Source: Rhizobacter sp. (lineage in GTDB: Bacteria > Pseudomonadota > Gammaproteobacteria > Burkholderiales > Burkholderiaceae_C). Taken from it: a stretch of 35,566 bases of DNA. The stretch is from NCBI GenBank assembly GCA_017881025.1, contig JADGRJ010000011.1, forward strand, positions 1 to 35,566, in the 5' to 3' direction. The notes under the pieces are model-generated. The model did not search any database and was not told the origin of the DNA. It saw nothing but the letters and a program-made list of their open reading frames with translations. The first letter of the stretch is position 1; each line of letters starts with the position of its first letter. Below, piece by piece: positions 1,157 through 31,181 of the stretch. A program made the translations under genes and the position numbers.

Positions 1157-4100
1157 CTAGCGCGCCGCAGCGATCCGCACGGTTTCGTCGAGCAGGCGGC
1201 CGTGACGGGCGGCCAGCGCCGCATGCTGCGCCAGCGCGGCGCGGGCCGCCTCGACGAGCTCGCGTGCAGGCCCGGGCCGTCCGAGCTCGGCCAAGGCGCG
1301 CGCGCGAAGGAGGCGCGTGTCGGCCAGGGTCGGGCTCGCGGCGTCGTACTGCGCGGCCTGCACCGGCAGGGCCAGCTGCAGGTAGCGCTCCGCTTCAGCG
1401 GCGTCTTGCCGGGCCAGCGCCGCGCGCGCGCGCACGACCTGCGCCTGCGCGGCGACGAGGGCGAGCGGCCGCTGCAGCTGGCGTGAATCGATCGCCGCCA
1501 GGGTCGCGGCGGCCATGGCGTCCGCGTTGGCCGAGTCGTTGCACTCGGCGCGCAGCTCGGCCTCGCTGAGGGCGGCGCGGAACTCGCTCTGGGTCGCGTA
1601 GGCGCGCGCCGTCGACATCGGTCCGAGCCGGGCGAGCGCTTCGCCGCAACGGCCGTGCGCCGCCTCGAGCTGCGCCCCCACGCTGCGTGCCAAGGCCCGC
1701 GTCTCGGCCGCCGCGCCGGCGGCCGCGCTGTCGAGGTATTGCTGCACCGTGGCCATGTGCTCCGACGCGCGCGCCGCATCGCCGCGCTCGATGGCGGCGT
1801 TCGCCGCGGCGAGCGCGACTTCCGCGGTCGTGCGGCTGACCGGGTTGGCGGCCTTCTCGGCCGCGGCCGCGGCCTCGAGGTGCTGGCCCGCTGCGTCTAT
1901 CAGGCCGTATTGCGCTTCGATGTTGCCCATCACGGACTGGACGTTGCGCAGCCACCGCTGCTGCTGCTCCGCCGGCGCGGAGCGGAGCGCGGTTTCGTTC
2001 TCGCGCGCCACCTTCAAGGCATCGGGCAGGCGCGACATCGCCGCCAACCCGGCGGCGTAGCTCCCGCGAAAGACGACGGTGGTCGCGTGGTACGGCCCGT
2101 TGATGCGTTGCGAGGCCTCGACAGCGCGGCGCGAACTTGCCTCGGCGAGGTCGAACTCGAGCCGCATCTCCTGGATGCGGCCCAGGTTCGCATAGGTCGC
2201 CGTGATCAGCGGATTGGCCAGATCGCCGGCCGCCTCGTAGTTGGCGACGGCGCGCTGGTAGGTGGCCTCGGCGTCGGCCAGGCGGCCGCGGAAGTACATG
2301 ACCATGCCGAGCCGCGTCTGGGCCAGGCCGTAGTGGATGTCGGTCGGCGTCGCGGCGAAGACCTGCAGCGCCGCGCGCGCATGGCGTTCGGCGGCGTCGA
2401 GGTCGGTGCCGTTGAGCAGCTCGGAGAGCGTGATCTGCAGCGTCCCGTACTCGATCGACGAGTGCTCCTTGCGCGCGTCGTAGATGCGCTCGGCGCGGTG
2501 CGCGACCTGGAGGCCTTCCGTCTTGTCCTCGAGCTTGAGGAGAACGGCCAGCGAGGCGTACGCGGCCGCCGTCTCGATGGCATCGGGACCGTGGAGCGAT
2601 TCGCTCAGCGCGACCTGCTTGCGCAGGAACTTGAGCTGCGCCTCCGGCATCACCAGCTCGCCGTAGATCGAAGCGAGCGCCTTGGTCACCTCGAGCTGGC
2701 TCGCCGGTTGCGCCGCGAGCGCCCCGTCGAGCCGTTGGGCGCCGCGGTCGAGCAGCTCGCGCGCCGTCAACTTCTGGGCGGCGAGCGGGCCGGCCTGGCC
2801 GACCGTGTTGCTCGCGAACAGGTCGATCAGGAAGCCCTGCACGGCCTTGGCGCGCTCGGCCTGCTGGCGTGCCTGCGCGGCTTCGGCCAGCGCGCGCGTG
2901 CGCTGGTTCTGCGCCTCGGCCGATGCGAGCCGGGCTTCGTTGGCAGAACGGCTGGCGCGCTCGGACTCGCGCTCGGCGCGCGCGGCCTGCTCGCGTGCGC
3001 GCGACGCCTGGCTCAGCGCCTCGGCTGCCTGGGCATCGGCACGCGCGGCCTGCGCGACCGTCTGGCTCTGGAAGGCGATGGCCTCTCCTTCGGCCTGGCG
3101 CGCACGGTTCGCTTCGCCGAGCGCGAGGTCGCGCTGGCGGCTGGCCTCGGCGCCCATCCACAACGTCGCGGCCAAACCGACGGCGAGCGCCGCGACCACC
3201 GCCGTCGCCGCAGCGACGGCGATCCGGTTGCGGCGCACGAACTTGGCCGCGCGATGGGCGAGCGTCCCCGGCTGCGCGGCGACAGGGCGGTCGTCGAGGT
3301 GGCGCTGCAGGTCGTCGGCGAACGCGGCGACGTTCGCGTAGCGCTCGGCCGGCAGCGGCGCCAGCGCCTTGTCCAGGATGTTGTCGAGATCGCCGCGCAG
3401 CGCCCGGCGCTCGCCCGGCGCGCGCTCGCTCGCCGGCTTGTAGCGGCCGTCGCTCGCGGCGCGCAGGTACTCGATCGAATGGCTGCCGGCCGGGAGCCCG
3501 CTCGGATGCGCCTGCGCGAGCAATTCGTAGAGCACGATGCCGAGCGCGAACACGTCGGTCGCCATGCCGAGCACGCCGCCTTCGAACTGCTCGGGCGCCG
3601 CGTACTGCGGCGTCAGGGCGAGCGCGCCGGCCCGCGTCAGCGCGGTCTCCGCCGCGTCGTCCTGGCCCGGCAGCAGGCGGGCGATGCCGAAGTCGAGCAG
3701 CTTCGCGCGCCCACTCTCGTCGACCAGGATGTTGGAGGGCTTGAGGTCGCGATGGATGACCAGCTGGCCGTGCGCTGCGGCCACCGCCGCGAGCACCTGC
3801 TGGAACAGCTCGATCCTTTCGCGGATCGAGGGCGAACGCGCCGCGCACCAGTGATCGATGCGCTCGCCCTCGACCAGCTCGAGGATGAGGTAGGGCTGGC
3901 CCTTGGCGGTGATGCCGGCGTCGAGCAGCTGGGCGATGCTCGGATGGCGCAGGCGGGCGAGGATCGCGCCTTCGCGGCGGAACCGCTCCTGGCCGGCGGC
4001 GTCGAACAGGCCGGTCTTGAGCAACTTGACGGCGGCCGCCCCTTCGAAGCGGCCGTCGCTGCGCCGGGCGCGCCAGACACTGCCCATGCCGCCTTCGCCG

Positions 4101-4375
4101 ATCGGCTCGACCAGCGTCCACGGGCCGAGCACGTCGCCGGCGGCGGCCGTCGGCGCCAGCATCGCCAGCAGTGCCGGCGCCACCGACTTGCTCAGGAAGC
4201 CGGCGCGCGAGGCGTCGTCGCCGGCCGACAGCAGCGCGCGCAGCTCGCGCGCCGTGTCGGGATCGTTGGCGGCGATATCGTCGAGCCGGCGCGCGCGCTC
4301 GAGCGGCGCCAGGGTGAGCAGTTCGTCGAGGCGCGGCTCGAGGCGGGCCCAGAGATCGGGACGCATCGCACTCAT
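1157..4375 (-). CDS. Serine/threonine protein kinase with TM segment, long Ala/Arg/Glu/Gln coiled-coil and C-terminal TPR-like region
   Basis: GEGGMGSVW glycine loop, AAVKLLK, HRDLKPSNILV catalytic loop, DFGIARLL, APEQ. Followed by hydrophobic segment AVAAATAVVAALAVGLAATLW, then coiled coil and TPR-like helices. Confidence 0.95.
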   Translation of the reverse strand: MSAMRPDLWARLEPRLDELLTLAPLERARRLDDIAANDPDTARELRALLSAGDDASRAGFLSKSVAPALLAMLAPTAAAGDVLGPWTLVEPIGEGGMGSVWRARRSDGRFEGAAAVKLLKTGLFDAAGQERFRREGAILARLRHPSIAQLLDAGITAKGQPYLILELVEGERIDHWCAARSPSIRERIELFQQVLAAVAAAHGQLVIHRDLKPSNILVDESGRAKLLDFGIARLLPGQDDAAETALTRAGALALTPQYAAPEQFEGGVLGMATDVFALGIVLYELLAQAHPSGLPAGSHSIEYLRAASDGRYKPASERAPGERRALRGDLDNILDKALAPLPAERYANVAAFADDLQRHLDDRPVAAQPGTLAHRAAKFVRRNRIAVAAATAVVAALAVGLAATLWMGAEASRQRDLALGEANRARQAEGEAIAFQSQTVAQAARADAQAAEALSQASRAREQAARAERESERASRSANEARLASAEAQNQRTRALAEAAQARQQAERAKAVQGFLIDLFASNTVGQAGPLAAQKLTARELLDRGAQRLDGALAAQPASQLEVTKALASIYGELVMPEAQLKFLRKQVALSESLHGPDAIETAAAYASLAVLLKLEDKTEGLQVAHRAERIYDARKEHSSIEYGTLQITLSELLNGTDLDAAERHARAALQVFAATPTDIHYGLAQTRLGMVMYFRGRLADAEATYQRAVANYEAAGDLANPLITATYANLGRIQEMRLEFDLAEASSRRAVEASQRINGPYHATTVVFRGSYAAGLAAMSRLPDALKVARENETALRSAPAEQQQRWLRNVQSVMGNIEAQYGLIDAAGQHLEAAAAAEKAANPVSRTTAEVALAAANAAIERGDAARASEHMATVQQYLDSAAAGAAAETRALARSVGAQLEAAHGRCGEALARLGPMSTARAYATQSEFRAALSEAELRAECNDSANADAMAAATLAAIDSRQLQRPLALVAAQAQVVRARAALARQDAAEAERYLQLALPVQAAQYDAASPTLADTRLLRARALAELGRPGPARELVEAARAALAQHAALAARHGRLLDETVRIAAAR

Positions 4376-6530: not shown

Positions 6531-7085
6531 ATGCGCGCCCAGGACGAAGCCGACATCGTCGCCTGCATCCCCAGCCTGCGCCGCTACGCGCGCGGGCTGG
6601 TGTCGGACCGCGACCGCGCCGACGATCTGGTGCAAGACACCCTGGAGAGAGCCTGGTCGCGGTTCTCGATGTGGCAACGGCGTGGCGAGATCCGGGCCTG
6701 GATGTTCGGCATCATGCACAACCACTTCGTCGACCGCTTGCGCGCGCAGCGCAGCCGGCCCGAAGACAGTGCCGGCGACGATCTGCCCGAGCAGCCGCAA
6801 CGACCGCTGCAGACCGACGCCCTTGAAGTGCGCGATCTCGACCGGCTGCTGCAACGCCTCCCGCCCGAGCAGCGCGAGGTGCTGCTTCTCGTCGGCGTCG
6901 AGGAGCTCGGCTACCAGGAGGTCGCCCTGACGCTCGGCGTGCCGGTTGGTACGGTGATGTCGCGGCTGTCACGCGGCCGGGCGAAGCTGCGAGCCGAGAT
7001 GATCGGGCGAGAGGCGCCCGGCAACGAGCCCCCGGGCCAGGAGACGGTCGGCCCATCGGCCGGCAGGATTCAACGCGTGAAATGA
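6531..7085 (+). CDS. ECF-type RNA polymerase sigma factor
   Basis: Sigma region 2 (RADDLVQDTLERAWSRFSMW) and region 4 (LPPEQREVLLLVGVEELGYQEVALTLGVPVGTVMSRLSRGRAKLR). Confidence 0.94.
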   Translation: MRAQDEADIVACIPSLRRYARGLVSDRDRADDLVQDTLERAWSRFSMWQRRGEIRAWMFGIMHNHFVDRLRAQRSRPEDSAGDDLPEQPQRPLQTDALEVRDLDRLLQRLPPEQREVLLLVGVEELGYQEVALTLGVPVGTVMSRLSRGRAKLRAEMIGREAPGNEPPGQETVGPSAGRIQRVK

Positions 7086-7939
7086 CCATGGCCGACCACA
7101 AACCCGCCGCGGCCGGCAATGGGAGCAACCCGTCGCCGATCACCGAAGCCGATCTTCATGCCTATGTCGATCGCCAGATCTCGCCCGCACGGCTGGCGCT
7201 GGTCGAGCGGTTTCTTGCCGTGCATCCGGAGGAGCGCGCGCGGACGCGCGACTGGCAGCAGCAGAACGAGATGATGCGTGGCCTGCTGAACCCGGTGCTC
7301 AGCGAGCCCGTGCCACTGGGCCTGCCGCTGAAACCGACGGTGGTGCTCTGGCCGTGGCGCGGCTTGGCGGCGGGCGTGCTGATCGCAGTCGTCAGCGCGA
7401 GCTCGGCGTGGTCGCTGCGCGGCGCGTTGGATGCCGACGCGGCACGTCTAGCCTTTGCGAATCCCTCCACCGCGCACTTTGGAACGGCCGCCGCCAAGGA
7501 GAGCGAGCTGAGCGGCTTCGCGCAGCGCGCCGCCATCGCCCACGTCGTATACAGCCCCGACATGCGGCGGCCCGTGGAGGTCGGCGCCGACCAGGAGCAA
7601 GCGCTCGTGACATGGCTGACCAAGCGGATGGGAACCGCCGTGCGCCCGCCGTCGCTGGCCTCCCTGGGCTATGAGCTGATCGGTGGCCGTCTGCTGCCCG
7701 GCGAGAAGGGGCCGGTCGCGCAGTTCATGTACGGTGCGCCCGGCGGACAGCGGCTCACGCTGTACGTGACGCGCGAAGTCGCCGGCCAAGATACGTCGTT
7801 CAAGTACGGCAAGGACGGACCGGTGAACGTGTTCTATTGGGTCGAAGATCACTTCGGCTATGCCATCTCGGCCGGCGCCGATCGCGACGAGCTCATGAAG
7901 GTGTCCCAAGAGGTCTACCGGCAGTTGAAGCCCAGATAG
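7082..7939 (+). CDS. Anti-sigma factor (membrane-anchored)
   Basis: ATGA overlap with the ECF sigma gene; ITEADLHAYVDRQISPARLALVERFLAVHPE N-terminus typical of anti-sigma proteins; single TM segment WRGLAAGVLIAVVSASSAW. Confidence 0.88.
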   Translation: MTMADHKPAAAGNGSNPSPITEADLHAYVDRQISPARLALVERFLAVHPEERARTRDWQQQNEMMRGLLNPVLSEPVPLGLPLKPTVVLWPWRGLAAGVLIAVVSASSAWSLRGALDADAARLAFANPSTAHFGTAAAKESELSGFAQRAAIAHVVYSPDMRRPVEVGADQEQALVTWLTKRMGTAVRPPSLASLGYELIGGRLLPGEKGPVAQFMYGAPGGQRLTLYVTREVAGQDTSFKYGKDGPVNVFYWVEDHFGYAISAGADRDELMKVSQEVYRQLKPR

Positions 7940-14777: not shown

Positions 14778-15788
<1,011 letters not shown>

Positions 15789-17702: not shown

Positions 17703-17741
17703 GCGCGTTCTTCCGCGATGGGGCGACGCCGGATTGTCTCG

Positions 17742-17760
17742 CCTCGCGCGTCGCGCGAGG
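17742..17760. promoter_or_regulatory. Perfect 9-1-9 palindrome CCTCGCGCG-T-CGCGCGAGG in divergent promoter region
   Basis: Direct reading; lies between start codons at 17702 (-) and 17818 (+). Confidence 0.4.
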
Positions 17761-17817
17761 TCGGTCTCCTTCGCCGCCGTTTGGGTATCCTGCCGGTGCG
17801 CCGCAGGCGCGAGCGCC

Positions 17818-18795
17818 ATGGGACCGACTCAGATCTTCATCAGCTACCGCCGCGACGACGCTGCCGGATACGCGCGCGCCGTCAACGACGAGCTGACCCG
17901 TTGTTTCGGTGCCGAGCGTGTGTTCATCGACGTCGACGACATCAACGCCGGGCAGCCCTTCAGCGAGGTCATCCAACGCTCGGTCGGCGACTCGGCGGTG
18001 TTGCTGGCGCTGATCGGCAGGCGCTGGCTCGGCGAGCGCGAGGGCGCCCCGCCGCGTGTCTTCGAAGCCGGCGACTTCGTCAGGCAGGAAGTCGCCGCCG
18101 GGCTGGCCAAGGGCCTTCGCGTCATCCCGGTCCTGCTGGACGGTGCGGCCATGCCCGACCCTGCGCAGCTGCCGCCGGAGCTGCGCCCCTTGGCCGGGCG
18201 CAACGCCTTGGCGCTCGACAACACGCGCTTCGCTGCCGACATGGCCCACCTGGTGCGCGAGGTGCGCGGTGCACTCGGTGAAGAGGCACTCCCGCCACCG
18301 GCCCGAGGGGGGTTCACGAAGTGGTGGCTGGCCGGCGCCGTGTTGGCCCTGGCGGCGATCGCCGCGCTCTGGCAGTTGCGATCCTCGCCCGACGAACGAG
18401 CCATGGCACCGGCGGCACGCCCGGCGGCGCGCCCGCAAGTCAACGGCGAATGGCGCGCGGAAGTCGACTACGACTGGCCCAACGCGCACTACGTCGAACG
18501 ATTCGTCTTCTCGGGCGAGGGCGACGAGCTGAACGGAAGCGCCTCGTTCCTCGGCGTCGCGCGCGGCGTGCTCGAGAGCCGCATCGACGCCGAGGGTGTG
18601 AGCTTCGTCACCCGGACGAGCGAACTGGCGGGGGCCGGCGGCAGCGACCCGGCGGTCGTGCACCGCTACCGCGGCCGCCTGTCCGGCGCCGAGATTCGAT
18701 TCGTCATGCAGACCGAAGGGGGCAGCTCGGCCCACGTGCCGGTCGAGTTCGTCGCCCGCCGGGTGGCGTCGGCCGCGCCGCAGGCCAGCCGCTGA
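17818..18795 (+). CDS. TIR domain protein with central TM helix and C-terminal extracytoplasmic domain
   Basis: IFISYRRDDAAGYARAVNDEL, VFIDVDDINAGQPFSEVIQRSV, DFVRQEVAAGLAKGLRVIPVLLDGA (TIR_2-like); TM WWLAGAVLALAAIAALW; beta-rich C-terminus. Confidence 0.9.
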   Translation: MGPTQIFISYRRDDAAGYARAVNDELTRCFGAERVFIDVDDINAGQPFSEVIQRSVGDSAVLLALIGRRWLGEREGAPPRVFEAGDFVRQEVAAGLAKGLRVIPVLLDGAAMPDPAQLPPELRPLAGRNALALDNTRFAADMAHLVREVRGALGEEALPPPARGGFTKWWLAGAVLALAAIAALWQLRSSPDERAMAPAARPAARPQVNGEWRAEVDYDWPNAHYVERFVFSGEGDELNGSASFLGVARGVLESRIDAEGVSFVTRTSELAGAGGSDPAVVHRYRGRLSGAEIRFVMQTEGGSSAHVPVEFVARRVASAAPQASR

Positions 18796-21942: not shown

Positions 21943-24153
21943 TCAGTCGCTGGCCAGCGAGAGCACCGCCGAGCGGTCGAACTGCGAAAAGATCGACACG
22001 CCGGTGACGGTCCAGGCGACGCCGTACCAGACGCTGTCGGTGCCGGACCAGCGGCGGATGACGATGTCGTAGCTCTCGCCGGCATGCGCCGCGAACTCGA
22101 CCACCTCGTAGCTGTTGTCCCACGACGCGGCCGCGGCCACCTGCGTGCCGTGGCTGTCGCGCACGAGCAGGTCGAGGTCGACGGTGAGCGTCGACGCCGT
22201 CGCCGTGTCGCCCGACGAGGTCACGGCGCTGTCCCACGCCAGCGCGACCTTCACCGTCGGGAAGAAGATCAGGTTCGGCACCGTCACGTGATAGCGGAAC
22301 GTCGCCAGCCCGTCGCTGCCGATGACGCTCGACGAGATCGTGCCGACGTCCCAGCCGCGCCGCGTCGCCGGCGCGTCGCGAAAGCGGCGCTGCTGGGCGA
22401 TCGCGACGCCGGCCTGGGCATCGACCGCGCCGACGCCGTCGCGGCCGTCGACGCGGTTGACGACGTCCTGCCACCAGGTGCCGCCGCGAACGTTGCGGCC
22501 GGCCGAGGCCATCAGGATCGCCCGACAGCCTTCCGGCCACGAGCAGAGGACGCTGTCGACGTCCTGCAGCAGCGCGATGACTCCGGCGGCAGCCGGGGCC
22601 GCGAAACTGGTGCCCGACTTCGTCTGGCCGTTGGCCGAGACACCGGTGCCGTTGGCGGCGAGCTCGGGCAGCTCGCGATCGCCATGGGTCGAGGTCGGGT
22701 TGCGGAAGACCGAGTCGCCCGACATCGCCGCCGCCGTGTCGTCGTGATTGCCGAGCGCGAGCGAGTTGAAGCCCTTGTGGTTCACGAACTCGTCTTCGGG
22801 CGGGCTGATGGCGTCGTCGTCGCCGAGCCAGAAGTTGCCGGCCGCCTGAGAGATCGTCGGATAGGGCCAGCGCAATGCCAGCCAGTCCTTCAGCAGGTCG
22901 TCGGACTGCAGGCCCGATCCGCCGGGCTCGGTGCTGCGGTGAAAGCTCTGGCTCACCACGGTGCAATGCTGATCGCGCACCGCCCAGCGCAGGGCGTCGG
23001 TGCCGGCGCTGTTTGCCGAAAACAGGTCGCAGCCCGGCGCGTGCCCGTGCGGCTTGCCGGACTCGGTGTTCTTGACGATCGCCGAGGTCAGCCGGGCGTG
23101 GGTGCTGGCCGGCGGCGAGGTCGTGAAGCGGCCGGCGAAGGAGAGGTTGGTCGTGACGCTCGGCCCGTCCTCCCAGACTGCGACGCGGATGCCGGCGCCG
23201 GTGAACCCTGCCAGGTGGGCACGGTCCGAGCGCGCGACGGCGATCGAATCGCCGAGGTCGTTGATCGCGGTCGGGTCGTCGAAGTGGATCGCGCCGATGG
23301 CCTTGTTCCCGGCCAAGCGGCGGATCTGCGCGACCGTCGCGGTCGCGCGCACGCAGGGCACGCCTTCGTCGCTGCGCGCTTCCCTGGCCAAGCCGATCTT
23401 CGCGCGCTTCAGGGCGGCGCGCAGCGCGGCCGACGACTTGCGCAACGCCACCGCCACCTTCTTCTCACCGTCGGGCGGCTCGATCGAGCGACGGTCGGCG
23501 GGCTTCTCGTAAGGCGCGGCGGCGAGCACGATCCGCGGCCAGACGACGATGTCGATCCGGTCGCTGTCCTTAGCTTTCTCGATTCGCTGGAACAGCGTTT
23601 CGTGCAGGCGACCGAAGCGGGCGGCGCGGCGCGCTTCCAGCTCGCCGAGCCGCTTGCCGATGTCGACCTTGGCACCGCGCTCGTCGAACGCCAGCTCGAC
23701 CGCCGTGCCCCTGGTGCGATGGACCGCCTTGACGACGTCGACGTGGCCCTCGCTCCGCTTCTCGCCGGGCGCGAGGCGAACGACCTGCAGATCGTCGATG
23801 AACAGGCGCACCGCGTGCTCGACACGCAGGTTGTCGGGGACCTTGCCCGAGATCGGCAACACCGAGAAGGCGATGCGATGACGCTCGACCAGCCGTTCGC
23901 CCTTGGTGCCGAGAAGCTCGGAGACGACGAGATGGCAGGCGCCGACGGTCGCCTCGTCGAGGCGAACGGTGACGCCGCGGCCGCGCTTGGCGAGCTCGAT
24001 ACCGGCGCGCAGCTGCTCGCAGCCGCGCATCACGCGGATCGCCGCCTGCGCCGATTGCGGATCGACCGGCGCGCCGAAGGCGAGCTCGATGACCGTGCCG
24101 GGGGCGATGATTTCGTCGGCGGTGATGCTGGATTCAAGAGTCGAAGTGCTCAT
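21943..24153 (-). CDS. S8 (subtilisin-like) serine peptidase with N-terminal Big_5-like domain
   Basis: Triad context VAVWEDG (Asp), STHARLTSAIV (His), SGTSFAAPAAAGVIAL (Ser); oxyanion-like SQAAGNFW; N-terminus VIELAFGAPVDPQSAQAAIRV. Confidence 0.88.
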   Translation of the reverse strand: MSTSTLESSITADEIIAPGTVIELAFGAPVDPQSAQAAIRVMRGCEQLRAGIELAKRGRGVTVRLDEATVGACHLVVSELLGTKGERLVERHRIAFSVLPISGKVPDNLRVEHAVRLFIDDLQVVRLAPGEKRSEGHVDVVKAVHRTRGTAVELAFDERGAKVDIGKRLGELEARRAARFGRLHETLFQRIEKAKDSDRIDIVVWPRIVLAAAPYEKPADRRSIEPPDGEKKVAVALRKSSAALRAALKRAKIGLAREARSDEGVPCVRATATVAQIRRLAGNKAIGAIHFDDPTAINDLGDSIAVARSDRAHLAGFTGAGIRVAVWEDGPSVTTNLSFAGRFTTSPPASTHARLTSAIVKNTESGKPHGHAPGCDLFSANSAGTDALRWAVRDQHCTVVSQSFHRSTEPGGSGLQSDDLLKDWLALRWPYPTISQAAGNFWLGDDDAISPPEDEFVNHKGFNSLALGNHDDTAAAMSGDSVFRNPTSTHGDRELPELAANGTGVSANGQTKSGTSFAAPAAAGVIALLQDVDSVLCSWPEGCRAILMASAGRNVRGGTWWQDVVNRVDGRDGVGAVDAQAGVAIAQQRRFRDAPATRRGWDVGTISSSVIGSDGLATFRYHVTVPNLIFFPTVKVALAWDSAVTSSGDTATASTLTVDLDLLVRDSHGTQVAAAASWDNSYEVVEFAAHAGESYDIVIRRWSGTDSVWYGVAWTVTGVSIFSQFDRSAVLSLASD

Positions 24154-24385
24154 CCAAGTCTCCGGATCTGCGGCGTGTTGCCGCTCGGGATGTCGGACGC
24201 GGAGTCTCTGCCTGCACCGGGTCATCGTCAACCGCGCGGGCGCCGGCTTCGATCGAGGCGATGAGCTGGTCGAACGCCTCTGCCGACGCTCTTGCGAGAG
24301 GCCGCCGACGTCGCTGCGCGCCTTTCATCTGCATTGAGGAAGCAGCATCGCGCCCATGGCCGTTCTACCCAGTTTTGGGGATTGT

Positions 24386-24413
24386 TCGCATGCCTGCGAG
24401 CGAGTTCACTCGC
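24386..24413. promoter_or_regulatory. Two abutting 14-bp inverted repeats: TCGCA-TGCC-TGCGA and GCGAG-TTCA-CTCGC
   Basis: Direct reading; immediately upstream of the AGGAGG ribosome-binding site of the 763-aa gene. Confidence 0.35.
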
Positions 24414-24433
24414 GACTTCTCAGGAGGTCCAAC

Positions 24434-26725
24434 ATGGCTGAACGAATTTCTGACTCGAAGCCCGAGGGCAATGACCGCAACTCGTACAAGCTGGAGCTGG
24501 TCGGCCTCACCGCTGCGAGCGACCGGCCGAACCTGGCGGTGCAAGTACTCGATGCCGCCAACGCCGTGCTGCACACGCAGCCGGTCCAGGCCGACGGCAG
24601 CTTCAAGATTCCACCTGCCGTTCTCAAGCGCGCCAACCGCGTGACGATCGGCACCGCCGACGAAAAGGGCGGCGTCCAGGCCGACGCCTCGGTCAGCTAC
24701 CGCGCGAGCGAGTTCGCGGCACAGCTCAAGGACGGGACGCTCGCCCTAGCCGAAGGCACTTGGTCGCGCTTCAAGTTCCAGTGGGTCTGCGTCAGCGGCA
24801 AGGTGCAGGCGTGCTGGCGGCGCCCTTGGTGGTACGACAGCATCATCACCGCGGCGACGACGGTCAAGGGGCGGGCGAGCACGCAGGCACGCGGCCTGTC
24901 CGCCGCTTCCAGCGCTGCGCTGGCGTCGCTGCAGGAGCGCAACACGCCGTCGCTGAACGACCTGCTCGTCTGGCCGTTCCGCTGCGCGACGGTTTGCCTC
25001 GGCAGCGTCGAGGTCTATCGCCGCACCTGCTGCTGCTGGCCGATCGTCTACGCGGACCCGCGCATCGACGACCTGATCCGCGACCTCGAGAACTACGTCG
25101 AACGGCTGCCGAAGCTGCCGCCGCCGAAGCGCGTCTTCCCGCCGCCGCCGCCGCCTCCGGGCGATCCGCTGCAGACGCCGTTCTTCAAAGGCGGCGCGCT
25201 CAACGAGCTGGCACTCAACGCGACCCAGGACCTGCACGCGCTGCACGCCATGCCCCGGGAGCAGGCGGCGCAGTACATCAATTCGCGCGCCTACCTGTTC
25301 CATCGGCTGTGCAGCTGCAGCTCGGCGAGCAAGGTCGGGAGCGGAACGATCCAGCCCGACGGAAGCTTCAACATCTGCTGGCATGAGCCGCTGCACCTCC
25401 TCCTGCCCAACTGCTACGAGCAGTACGCCTACGTCGTCAAGCAGACGATCGGCGGGAGCACGACGACGATCTACGACGGCCTCGCCGCGGGCGCGTGGTA
25501 CGGAGCCGGCGACCACCCGACGCTCACCTCGTACAACGGGCTCGCCTTCACCTGCAACGAGACCGGCAGCGGCGACGGCAACGCCGAAGTCTTCCTCGAC
25601 CTGATCGGCGATACCGAGAGCCACGAGCTGACGACGCCCGCGTCGACCGGCTGGGACCGCGTCGCCACGCCCAACGCGACCTCCGGCCTGCTGTTCCCCA
25701 ACATCGGCCCGAACAACAGTCACCTGCGCAACCTGGGCGGGGGCATCGAGCTGAAGTTCGTCTTCACGCTCGGCATGCGCGATCCGGCGGTCGGGGCGCA
25801 CTACTACCGCGTCAGCGTCTGCGAGGCCGATGCGAACGGCAACCCGACCGGCTCCCGCTACTACTACGGCGACGGCCTGGCCTGGGAGAAGATCGTCGGC
25901 GCCGACATCGTGCCGGAGTCGCTCGGTCCGGTGACGGTGGGCAGCGAGGCCAATCTCTACCGCATCCCGTACAGCGACGAACCGTGGGTGGGCTCGGTGC
26001 GCCACCACGCGCTGGTCAACACGATGATCGCCGCGCTCAACGTGCCCGCCGACACGCCGGCGAATCTGGCGCTGCCGGCCATCAACCATCTGATCACGCT
26101 CGAGGTGTTCGATGCAGCCGGCGCGCGCCTGCGGCCGCTCGGCACGCCGGCATCCGGCCAGTCGGGAATCGAGCACGCCAAGGCTTTCAAGTACCGGCGC
26201 TGGTTCCAGCCCGCCGGCAGCCCTGGCGACGACACCGTCGAAGTGCCGTTCGCCGCGCTGACACACTTGTTCTGCTGGGACAACCGCGCCCCGGTCGCCG
26301 ACATCGAGCGGCTGGTGATGAACAGCACGGCGTCGAACGAGGAATGCCAGTTCCTGCAAGGTCCGGGCGACTCGACCTTCGCCATCGAGTACCGCGCCTA
26401 CGTGGCCGAGGAGCGCTTCCAGTACGGCCACGGTATCAGCTGGATCCGCGGCCTGAACCACTCGGCCAGCAACGGCGGCGAGGGCGTGCTGGCGACGCCG
26501 CTCAGCCCGGCCAACGTCGGCAAGCCGCCGTCGCCGCCGGTCAACAGCGGCAGCAACGCGTTCTCGCTCATGCTGGCCCGGCCCGATCTCGTCCCGCCCG
26601 AGGTGCTGCAGCGCTGCTCGTTCGCGGTCACGCTGACGACATACGCCAAGACCACCAATGGCTCCAACCTGGGCTACTCCTGGTACGACCAAGAGACGGC
26701 GGCGTTCGCGCTCGAGATCGACTGA
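24434..26725 (+). CDS. Large Cys-rich hypothetical protein (763 aa) with polyproline linker
   Basis: Long ORF with AGGAGG ribosome-binding site and amino-acid composition consistent with a real protein; contains CVSGKVQACWRRPWWYDS, RRTCCCW, LFHRLCSCSS, FPPPPPPPGD. No family recognised. Confidence 0.9.
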   Translation: MAERISDSKPEGNDRNSYKLELVGLTAASDRPNLAVQVLDAANAVLHTQPVQADGSFKIPPAVLKRANRVTIGTADEKGGVQADASVSYRASEFAAQLKDGTLALAEGTWSRFKFQWVCVSGKVQACWRRPWWYDSIITAATTVKGRASTQARGLSAASSAALASLQERNTPSLNDLLVWPFRCATVCLGSVEVYRRTCCCWPIVYADPRIDDLIRDLENYVERLPKLPPPKRVFPPPPPPPGDPLQTPFFKGGALNELALNATQDLHALHAMPREQAAQYINSRAYLFHRLCSCSSASKVGSGTIQPDGSFNICWHEPLHLLLPNCYEQYAYVVKQTIGGSTTTIYDGLAAGAWYGAGDHPTLTSYNGLAFTCNETGSGDGNAEVFLDLIGDTESHELTTPASTGWDRVATPNATSGLLFPNIGPNNSHLRNLGGGIELKFVFTLGMRDPAVGAHYYRVSVCEADANGNPTGSRYYYGDGLAWEKIVGADIVPESLGPVTVGSEANLYRIPYSDEPWVGSVRHHALVNTMIAALNVPADTPANLALPAINHLITLEVFDAAGARLRPLGTPASGQSGIEHAKAFKYRRWFQPAGSPGDDTVEVPFAALTHLFCWDNRAPVADIERLVMNSTASNEECQFLQGPGDSTFAIEYRAYVAEERFQYGHGISWIRGLNHSASNGGEGVLATPLSPANVGKPPSPPVNSGSNAFSLMLARPDLVPPEVLQRCSFAVTLTTYAKTTNGSNLGYSWYDQETAAFALEID

Positions 26726-26758
26726 GATGAGCGGTGACAAAACGGAGTCGATGGCGAG

Positions 26759-27163
26759 ATGAGCGCCGACGTCGACTTCTGGCCGCGCCTGGTCCTGGCG
26801 ATCCTCGTGACCTGGCGCGTCACCCACCTGCTCGTGCGCGAGGACGGGCCGGCCGCGACGCTCGCCCGCCTCCGCGCGACGCTGGGGCCGGGCGCATGGA
26901 GCGGGATGTTCGCCTGCTTCTACTGCATGAGCCTGTGGGTGGCGGCGCCGCTCTCGCTGTGGGTGGCAACGCGGCCGCTCGACGCCTGGATGGTCTGGCT
27001 GGCGCTCTCGGGGGCGGCATGTCTGTGCGAGCGCATCGGCCAGCCGGAGGTGGTCGTGCAACCGTTGCCCGAAACGAACCTGGGAGAAGACGATGGGATG
27101 TTGCGGACTCAGGCGGAGCCCGCTGCCGGCCGCACTGGCGGCGGCGCCGCGCCCGGCGCCTGA
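26759..27163 (+). CDS. DUF1360-like small membrane protein
   Basis: VLAILVTWRVTHLLVREDGPAATLARLRATLG ... FACFYCMSLWVAAPLSLWV ... WLALSGAACLCERI matches the remembered DUF1360 pattern. Confidence 0.8.
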   Translation: MSADVDFWPRLVLAILVTWRVTHLLVREDGPAATLARLRATLGPGAWSGMFACFYCMSLWVAAPLSLWVATRPLDAWMVWLALSGAACLCERIGQPEVVVQPLPETNLGEDDGMLRTQAEPAAGRTGGGAAPGA

Positions 27164-27362
27164 CGCCGTGGGCCATCGCCTCGCGGAGGCGACGGCCGGC
27201 GGCCGCGGCGTGACGCTGCGATACCGCGACCGGTCGCGGATCCTCGTGCGCGGCCCCGTGACCGGCCGCGCCTACGAGTTCTCGCCGCGGCAGCCAACGC
27301 CATCTGTCGACATGCGCGACGCCGACGTGCTGATGCGAACCGGCCGCTTCCTGCGGGCCTGA
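27093..27362 (+). CDS. Small hypothetical protein with N-terminal MGCCG motif
   Basis: GGGAG upstream of ATG; C-terminus VTLRYRDRSRILVRGPVTGRAYEFSPRQPTPSVDMRDADVLMRTGRFLRA looks like a folded conserved core. Confidence 0.65.
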   Translation: MGCCGLRRSPLPAALAAAPRPAPDAVGHRLAEATAGGRGVTLRYRDRSRILVRGPVTGRAYEFSPRQPTPSVDMRDADVLMRTGRFLRA

Positions 27363-28962: not shown

Positions 28963-29988
28963 ATGTCACTCAAGCACTTGACCACGGCGGCGCTCACGAT
29001 GGCCAGCCTCGGGCTCGCGACGACCGCTCAGGCAGGCAAGACGCTGGACGCGGTGAAGGCACGCGGCCAGGTCGTCTGCGGCGTCAACACCTCGGGCCCG
29101 GGCTTTTCGTCGGCGGACAGCCAGGGCAAGTGGTCCGGCCTCGACGTCGACTTCTGCCGTGCCGTCGCCGCGGCCGTGCTCAAGGACGCCGACAAGGTCA
29201 AGTACGTGCCGCTCAATTCGCAACAGCGTTTCGCCTCGCTTCAGGCCGGCGAGATCGACGTGCTGTCGCGCAACAGCACCTGGACGCTGTCGCGCGATGC
29301 GTCCCTCGGCGTGGTCTTTACCGGCATCAACTACTTCGACGGCCAGGGTTTCATGGTGCCGAAGAAGCTGAAGATCGACAACATCAACAAGCTCAATGGC
29401 GCGACCCTGTGCGTGCAAGCCGGCACCACCAGCGAGAAGAACGTGGCCGATTATTTCGGCGCTCACAGCATGAAGTACAAGTCGGTCGTGTTCGATACCG
29501 CCGAGGCGATCACGAGCGCATTCTTCGCCGGCCGGTGCCAGGTCTACACCACCGACATGAGCGATCTCGCCGGCGCTCGCACGAAGGCGCCGAAGGCCGA
29601 CGACTACGTCATCCTGCCGCAGGTGATCTCCAAGGAGCCGCTCGGCGCATCGGTTCGCCGCGGCGACGACGAGTGGTTCGAGATCGTTCGCTGGACCCAG
29701 TTCGCGCTGCTCGAGGCCGAAGAGAACGGCCTGACGCAAGCCAACGTCGACCAGCAGAAGTCGACCAACAAGGACCCCGGCGTGCAGCGCTTCCTCGGCG
29801 TTTCCGAAGACATGGGCAAGCTGCTCGGCCTCGATGCGGAGTGGGCCTATCGCATCGTCAAGCAGGTGGGCAACTACGGTGAGAGCTTCGAGCGCAACCT
29901 CGGCGCCAAGTCGCCGCTCAACCTGCCACGCGGTGCCAACAACCTGTGGACCAAGGGCGGCCTGATGTACGCGCCGCCGATTCGCTGA
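28963..29988 (+). CDS. aapJ: General L-amino acid ABC transporter substrate-binding protein
   Basis: Signal peptide; KTLDAVKARGQVVCGVNTSGPGFSSADSQGKWSGLDVDFCRAVAAAVL; NSTWTLSRDASLG; TTDMSDLAGAR; GLMYAPPIR C-terminus; followed by AapQ- and AapM-like permeases. Confidence 0.92.
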   Translation: MSLKHLTTAALTMASLGLATTAQAGKTLDAVKARGQVVCGVNTSGPGFSSADSQGKWSGLDVDFCRAVAAAVLKDADKVKYVPLNSQQRFASLQAGEIDVLSRNSTWTLSRDASLGVVFTGINYFDGQGFMVPKKLKIDNINKLNGATLCVQAGTTSEKNVADYFGAHSMKYKSVVFDTAEAITSAFFAGRCQVYTTDMSDLAGARTKAPKADDYVILPQVISKEPLGASVRRGDDEWFEIVRWTQFALLEAEENGLTQANVDQQKSTNKDPGVQRFLGVSEDMGKLLGLDAEWAYRIVKQVGNYGESFERNLGAKSPLNLPRGANNLWTKGGLMYAPPIR

Positions 29989-30020
29989 AGCGGGGCGCCG
30001 CATCGCGGGAAGGCGATCCG

Positions 30021-31181
30021 GTGTCTGTCGCCGCCATCGGTGACGAGGCCTGGCGGACACGGCAGCGCGCGCGCCTGCGGCGCGAGTGGTTGTTGCAGGG
30101 CGCGCTTGCGCTCGTCGTCCTCGCCCTGCTCGCCGGCCTCGCGCAGAACGTGGCCGCGAACCTCGAAGCGCGCCAGATCAAGTCGGGCTTCGGCTTCCTG
30201 CGCGATCCGGCGGGCTTCAACATCGGCGAGCTGCTGTTCGAGTACAGCGCCCGCGACAGCTATCTGCGCGCCTTTGCCGTCGGCATGGCCAACACGCTGC
30301 GCGTGTCGGTGGCGGGGATCGTGCTCGCGAGCGTGCTGGGAGTGATCGTCGGCCTGATGCGTCTGTCGCACCACGGGCTCGTGGCCTGGCTGGGCAGCGC
30401 CTACGTGGAGGTCTTCCGGAACACGCCGCTGCTGATCCAGCTGCTCACGATCTATCTCCTGGCGACCGAGTTGCTGCCCGATTCCTCGGCAGCGCTCTCG
30501 ATAGAGGGGGTCGCGTTGCTGTCCAAGCAGGGGCTGCAGATCGCGGTGCCGGCCTCGGGCACGCTCGCACTGCTGGCCGCGGTCGTGATCGGCCTGCTGG
30601 CGGGCGCCGCGGCGTTCGTGGCGGCCAGGCGCTGGCTGATGGTCGGCGCCGGGCCGGTCGGATGGGTTGCCGGGCTGGCGAGCGCACTGCTGGCCTGGCT
30701 GGCCTTCGGCGCGATCGGCGGCTGGTCGCGCCCGGAGGTCGACGGCTTTCTGATCAGCGGCGGCGCTTCGCTGACGCCGGAATTCCTCGCCCTCTGGCTG
30801 GGCCTGTCGCTGTTCACGTCGGCGTCGATCGCCGAGCTGGTGCGCGCCGGTGCCCTGGCCGTTCCGGTCGGCCAGTGGAACGCCGCGCTGGCACTCGGGC
30901 TGACGCGAGGCAAGGCCATCGCCGGAGTGATCTTTCCGCAAGCGCTGCGCCTGGCGATCCCGCCGCTGGCGAGCCAGTACATGAACCTGATCAAGAACTC
31001 GTCGCTGGCGGTGGTGATCGGCTATCCGGACCTGGTCTCGATCGGCAACACGTCGATCAACCAGAACGGCCAGGCGCTGGAAGTCATCGTCATCATCATG
31101 GCGGTCTACCTGTCGCTCAACCTGGTGGTCGCGGTCGCCATGGGCGCGGTCAACGCGCGCGTGACGCGCGCGCCGCGATGA
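30021..31181 (+). CDS. aapQ: General L-amino acid ABC transporter permease
   Basis: GFLRDPAGFNIGE, FAVGMANTLRVSVAGIVLASVLGVIVGLMRLS, YVEVFRNTPLLIQL; GTG start proposed at 30021. Confidence 0.9.
   Translation: MSVAAIGDEAWRTRQRARLRREWLLQGALALVVLALLAGLAQNVAANLEARQIKSGFGFLRDPAGFNIGELLFEYSARDSYLRAFAVGMANTLRVSVAGIVLASVLGVIVGLMRLSHHGLVAWLGSAYVEVFRNTPLLIQLLTIYLLATELLPDSSAALSIEGVALLSKQGLQIAVPASGTLALLAAVVIGLLAGAAAFVAARRWLMVGAGPVGWVAGLASALLAWLAFGAIGGWSRPEVDGFLISGGASLTPEFLALWLGLSLFTSASIAELVRAGALAVPVGQWNAALALGLTRGKAIAGVIFPQALRLAIPPLASQYMNLIKNSSLAVVIGYPDLVSIGNTSINQNGQALEVIVIIMAVYLSLNLVVAVAMGAVNARVTRAPR

Follow-up and report, generated by a model that had tools for sequence, protein, structure and literature searches.

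The window, a stretch of 35,566 nucleotides, comprises an entire contig (G000:C26) from a Rhizobacter sp. genome of 4.33 Mb in 425 contigs, estimated to be 98.6% complete. It contains a gene for an S8 subtilase that is divergent from three consecutive plus-strand genes, the facing start codons lying around 280 nt apart (Table 1). The plus-strand genes encode a 763-aa protein, here termed BIG, a DUF1360-like protein and a small Cys-Cys protein, MGCCG (MxCCG where relatives are included), which are together referred to as the triad. When the open reading frames were rechecked, all four, with their strands and overlaps, were as given in the preliminary description, and codon-position G+C was coding-like for each and carried the signature of the host. 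BIG is separated from the DUF1360-like gene by 33 nt, and the latter overlaps the MGCCG gene by 71 nt, an arrangement that makes co-transcription of the three plausible; a promoter and terminator scan found neither.

Table 1. Genes of the locus, with positions in the window
Feature	Coordinates	Strand	Start codon	GC3	Basis
S8 subtilase (PF00082), 736 aa	21943..24153	-	ATG 24153	0.92	Pfam 1.3e-10; divergent neighbour, outside the conserved cassette
BIG, 763-aa modular Cys-rich protein	24434..26725	+	ATG 24434, preceded by AGGAGG	0.92	Coding signature, homologues, profile links, hydrophobicity
DUF1360-like small hydrophobic protein	26759..27163	+		0.90	Sub-threshold PF07098; G118 homologue above cut-off; phrog_781
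MGCCG protein	27093..27362	+	ATG 27093, preceded by GGGAG	0.87	Three-sequence alignment; AlphaFold, C-terminal half; MSCCG homologue in G118

The four gene products

The S8 protein scores 41.6 bits against its Pfam family (gathering threshold 21.8) and contains the His (STHARLTS, 350), Asn (QAAGNFW, 436) and Ser (SGTSFAAP, 513) motifs; the Asp motif, residues 324-330, reads VAVWEDG, where a weak alignment to furin places Glu at the catalytic Asp. Pfam gives no match at E<1 for the N-terminal Big_5 domain initially proposed here. PopC of Myxococcus xanthus is an S8 protease without a signal peptide (PMC6434023), and the window protein likewise has no obvious one, but the window S8 gene has no PopD-like partner beside it, and the analogy was rejected as the 66-aa ORF upstream (24134-24334) has a GC3 of 0.67 and lacks a coding signature.

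None of Pfam, NCBIfam, PHROGs and PADLOC has a family whose cut-off BIG reaches, bearing out the first impression that it lies outside recognised families. Its N-terminus has a sub-threshold match to Big_6 (22.8 vs 27.6 bits), and its modules read like those of carboxypeptidase-regulatory-like and Ig-like beta-sandwich proteins, from which it differs in having no above-threshold domain, long Cys-rich inserts and, in a hydrophobicity scan, no signal-like hydrophobic stretch at its N-terminus. The Cys clusters and polyproline stretch originally remarked upon are real, and are conserved in close relatives; in a ten-member alignment, Cys 374 and 638 (window numbering) are invariant, and nine of the ten members have Cys 188 and 293. 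A full-length AlphaFold prediction from four sequences is beta-rich at low confidence (pLDDT 40.5, poor), and a Foldseek search with this model, which returned generic beta-sandwich matches only, was set aside.

The DUF1360-like protein of the window carries a C-x-x-C-x-S-L-W motif and scores 12.9 bits against PF07098, below the gathering threshold of 21, being assigned to the family via its homologues. That of another genome of the same order (G118), 43% identical to the window copy, reaches 22.2 bits, above the cut-off, and both this protein and its counterpart in a Rhodoferax metagenome-assembled genome (MAG) match phrog_781 at around 5e-7. A fixed pairing of this family with BIG and MxCCG was not found in the literature searched, in which a single paper names DUF1360.

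MGCCG has a sub-threshold, chance-like family match only. It is modelled as a flexible Cys-Cys head with a compact C-terminal domain (residues about 40-89), for which the AlphaFold pLDDT exceeds 90 and which consists of four strands, a helix and a further strand. This domain model has no significant match in the PDB; its nearest folds, which serve as a lead only, are uncharacterised tailed-phage proteins (E 0.02). Myristoylation was rejected because the G118 copy begins MSCCG and residue 6 departs from the motif. Conservation of the paired Cys as a by-product of overlapping reading frames was also rejected, because in G118 there is no overlap between the MSCCG and DUF1360 genes.

Recurrence of the triad

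The triad is found in identical order and strand in the window, Luteimonas panaciterrae, the Rhodoferax MAG and G118. Close relatives of BIG (58-72% identity) are present in the first two of these other genomes and in a Gemmatimonadetes MAG. Both Luteimonas and Rhodoferax have DUF1360-like and MGCCG genes after BIG in the same order, mutually overlapping by 26 nt, while the Gemmatimonadetes partners are not assessable because the contig stops at the BIG gene. The G118 locus is more diverged: its BIG was undetected by tblastn against the window, and is linked to the window protein through profile comparison alone (hhalign, 475 columns, probability 92.7%, E 4e-7). The locus nevertheless keeps the two partners, with the gene order BIG, DUF1360, MSCCG and then a 445-aa protein. 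An MGCCG alignment search found MxCCG in two of 250 same-order genomes, the window's own and G118, in both cases adjoining BIG; given the presence of BIG in seven genomes, the chance of such adjacency in both is approximately 7e-4. Across the three triad genes dN/dS is 0.23-0.59, indicative of purifying selection. A recent transfer argued from low dS was not used as proof, because GC3 near 0.9 depresses pS.

BIG, the DUF1360-like protein and MxCCG constitute a real conserved cassette, recurring across orders in unrelated bacteria, and it is undescribed in the libraries searched. The four-gene cassette of the preliminary description, with its expected co-occurrence beyond close relatives, thus stands for the triad, which reaches as far as G118, but not for the protease: S8 has no match in the Luteimonas, Rhodoferax, Gemmatimonadetes or G254 genomes, each of which has BIG, although the MAGs may be incomplete. 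S8 is a local neighbour and not a cassette member.

Amino-acid ABC transporter genes are found near the triad both in the window (28963-31181) and in Rhodoferax (L004, 1-3598), on opposite sides, possibly reflecting a shared insertion neighbourhood or chance.

The BIG superfamily and its neighbours

In profile searches BIG was detected in seven of 264 same-order genomes, representing five of 123 genera, with none in the other same-family genomes listed; it is also present in Xanthomonadales, the order of Luteimonas, and in the one Gemmatimonadetes MAG. Members are around 690-770 aa long, and are connected by profile matches: profile A5 matches the BIG of genome G170 (4.6e-28), the G118/G170 pair matches a pair associated with papain (1.8e-14), and A5 matches the papain-associated pair directly but more weakly (1.3e-4). 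BIG founds a patchy superfamily. The tree groups the window, Rhodoferax, Luteimonas and Gemmatimonadetes proteins, with that of G254, which is present without DUF1360 or MxCCG partners, as their sister, a topology implying either loss of the pair in G254 or its repeated gain. Carriage of the cassette on a phage, plasmid or virus was rejected, as searches of phage, plasmid and viral sets with BIG and MGCCG were empty; likewise the DUF1360 protein had no match in viral or phage sets, and the S8 and 445-aa proteins had none in plasmids.

Peptidases of different families directly adjoin BIG: S8 in the window, a calpain in G915 (PF00648, 2.3e-20) and a papain in G145 (PF00112, 2.1e-12), with a relative of the last in G062 assigned by inspection. 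At G170 the neighbours are a 401-aa gene with a transglutaminase-like reading and a 997-aa gene with an HEICGH stretch, both motif readings only, because Pfam and NCBIfam support neither. Adjoining peptidases are absent from most BIG loci, including those of Rhodoferax, G118, G254, G214 and G891/G909. If approximately 20 flanking genes count as independent and a peptidase background of 3% is assumed, adjacency in the three firmly assigned lineages has P of about 0.02, and in four about 0.003, both post hoc. The preliminary theme of a protease with a candidate substrate consequently receives some weak support from the unrelated peptidases that adjoin BIG in other lineages, but S8 itself is not kept with the triad.

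Other neighbours vary. In Luteimonas, genes for a CHAT-TPR protein and for a sigma factor of ECF type lie a few genes upstream. A 445-aa Cys-rich family without a Pfam assignment (L020, 7960-9297; L017, 12145-13479; L023; L024) occurs by BIG, adjoining it in G118 and G915, and has distant relatives in two other genomes; a 1203-aa ORF of G424 contains a region related to this family and, by eye, a regulatory-like module too.

Possible roles of the cassette

The preferred, though tentative, reading is that the triad is an operon of three genes, spread horizontally, and that its products form one complex. BIG, as a string of beta-sandwich modules with a polyproline hinge, would act as a scaffold, an N-terminal Big_6/transthyretin-like module being followed by a carboxypeptidase-regulatory-like one ('C-V-x-G ... 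P-V-C-x-x-x-V-E-V-Y') and then by further beta domains. The DUF1360 protein would anchor BIG at the inner membrane, MxCCG would be a small adaptor, and the neighbouring peptidase, whether S8, papain or calpain, would be an exchangeable partner, either processing BIG or accompanying it. Of this, the conserved gene unit, purifying selection, the patchy distribution and the differing peptidase families beside BIG are observed, and operon transcription, complex formation, anchoring, the adaptor role and any tie to the peptidase are inferred. The order of the triad, the rarity of MxCCG, the dN/dS values, the low-confidence beta-rich model, the adjacency of three peptidase families and the patchiness of BIG are all consistent with this proposal. 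Against it stand the divergent orientation of S8 and its absence where the triad is conserved, the predominance of peptidase-free BIG loci, the post hoc peptidase count, the lack of a confident BIG structure and the solitary BIG of G254.

Level with this proposal in probability, and plainer, is the alternative that the triad is a genuine operon serving the envelope or the surface, all its peptidase neighbours, S8 included, being coincidental. Such coincidence would account for the lack of an S8 counterpart in the triad's relatives and for the peptidase-free loci named above, but sits less easily with the papain, calpain and S8 genes that immediately flank BIG in three distinct lineages. The cassette provides DUF1360, a family of unknown function, with a recurring gene context, and connects that family to a large protein superfamily which the searched libraries lack; unrelated peptidases adjoining one scaffold-like family represent a testable pattern.

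The exchangeable-partner proposal could be extended, though this is unlikely, to make BIG, as a Cys-rich beta-domain scaffold, the constant platform of an unrecognised bacterial system that recruits S8, papain, calpain and perhaps other peptidases, with DUF1360/MxCCG as a membrane module in one branch, the whole acting as a modular protease-delivery or protease-triggered machine.

The suggestion of a contractile particle has a single locus in its favour. A distant BIG homologue in G778 (L016, 1-9303) adjoins sheath, tube and Pvc16 genes, as in an extracellular contractile injection system, and the triad proteins could correspondingly be accessories or cargo of phage-tail-like particles, in keeping with the phage family formed by DUF1360 relatives and the tailed-phage resemblance of the MGCCG domain. 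This is possible, on one line of evidence, but improbable, as a search for the tail sheath PF04984 in the nearly complete window genome, in which the controls were detected, found none, no contractile cluster accompanies BIG at the orthologous G915 locus or at the other loci, and BIG is missing from phage and viral sets. The related idea of encapsulation found no support.

Also possible on a single line of evidence, and less probable again, is a module for defence or cell death that a protease would trigger by acting on BIG, in the manner of gasdermin loci, as suggested by those of fungi, in which S8 or CHAT proteases alternate beside one protein family (PMC10989679), by the CHAT-TPR gene of Luteimonas, by the patchiness of BIG and by the match of S8, alone among the core genes, to a PADLOC model (generic subtilase, 5.5e-9), but opposed by the failure of BIG to match the gasdermin family or, like DUF1360 and MGCCG, any PADLOC model, by mostly housekeeping neighbours, by the scarcity of adjacent proteases and by the absence of S8 where the triad is conserved.

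Elsewhere, the contig is rich in signalling genes, encoding a Ser/Thr kinase with TPRs (1157-4375), an ECF sigma factor whose gene overlaps the 285-aa gene after it (6531-7939) and a cyclase-FHA protein (14778-15788). A TIR-domain protein (17734-18795; PF13676, 6.2e-12) has weak matches to defence TIR models.
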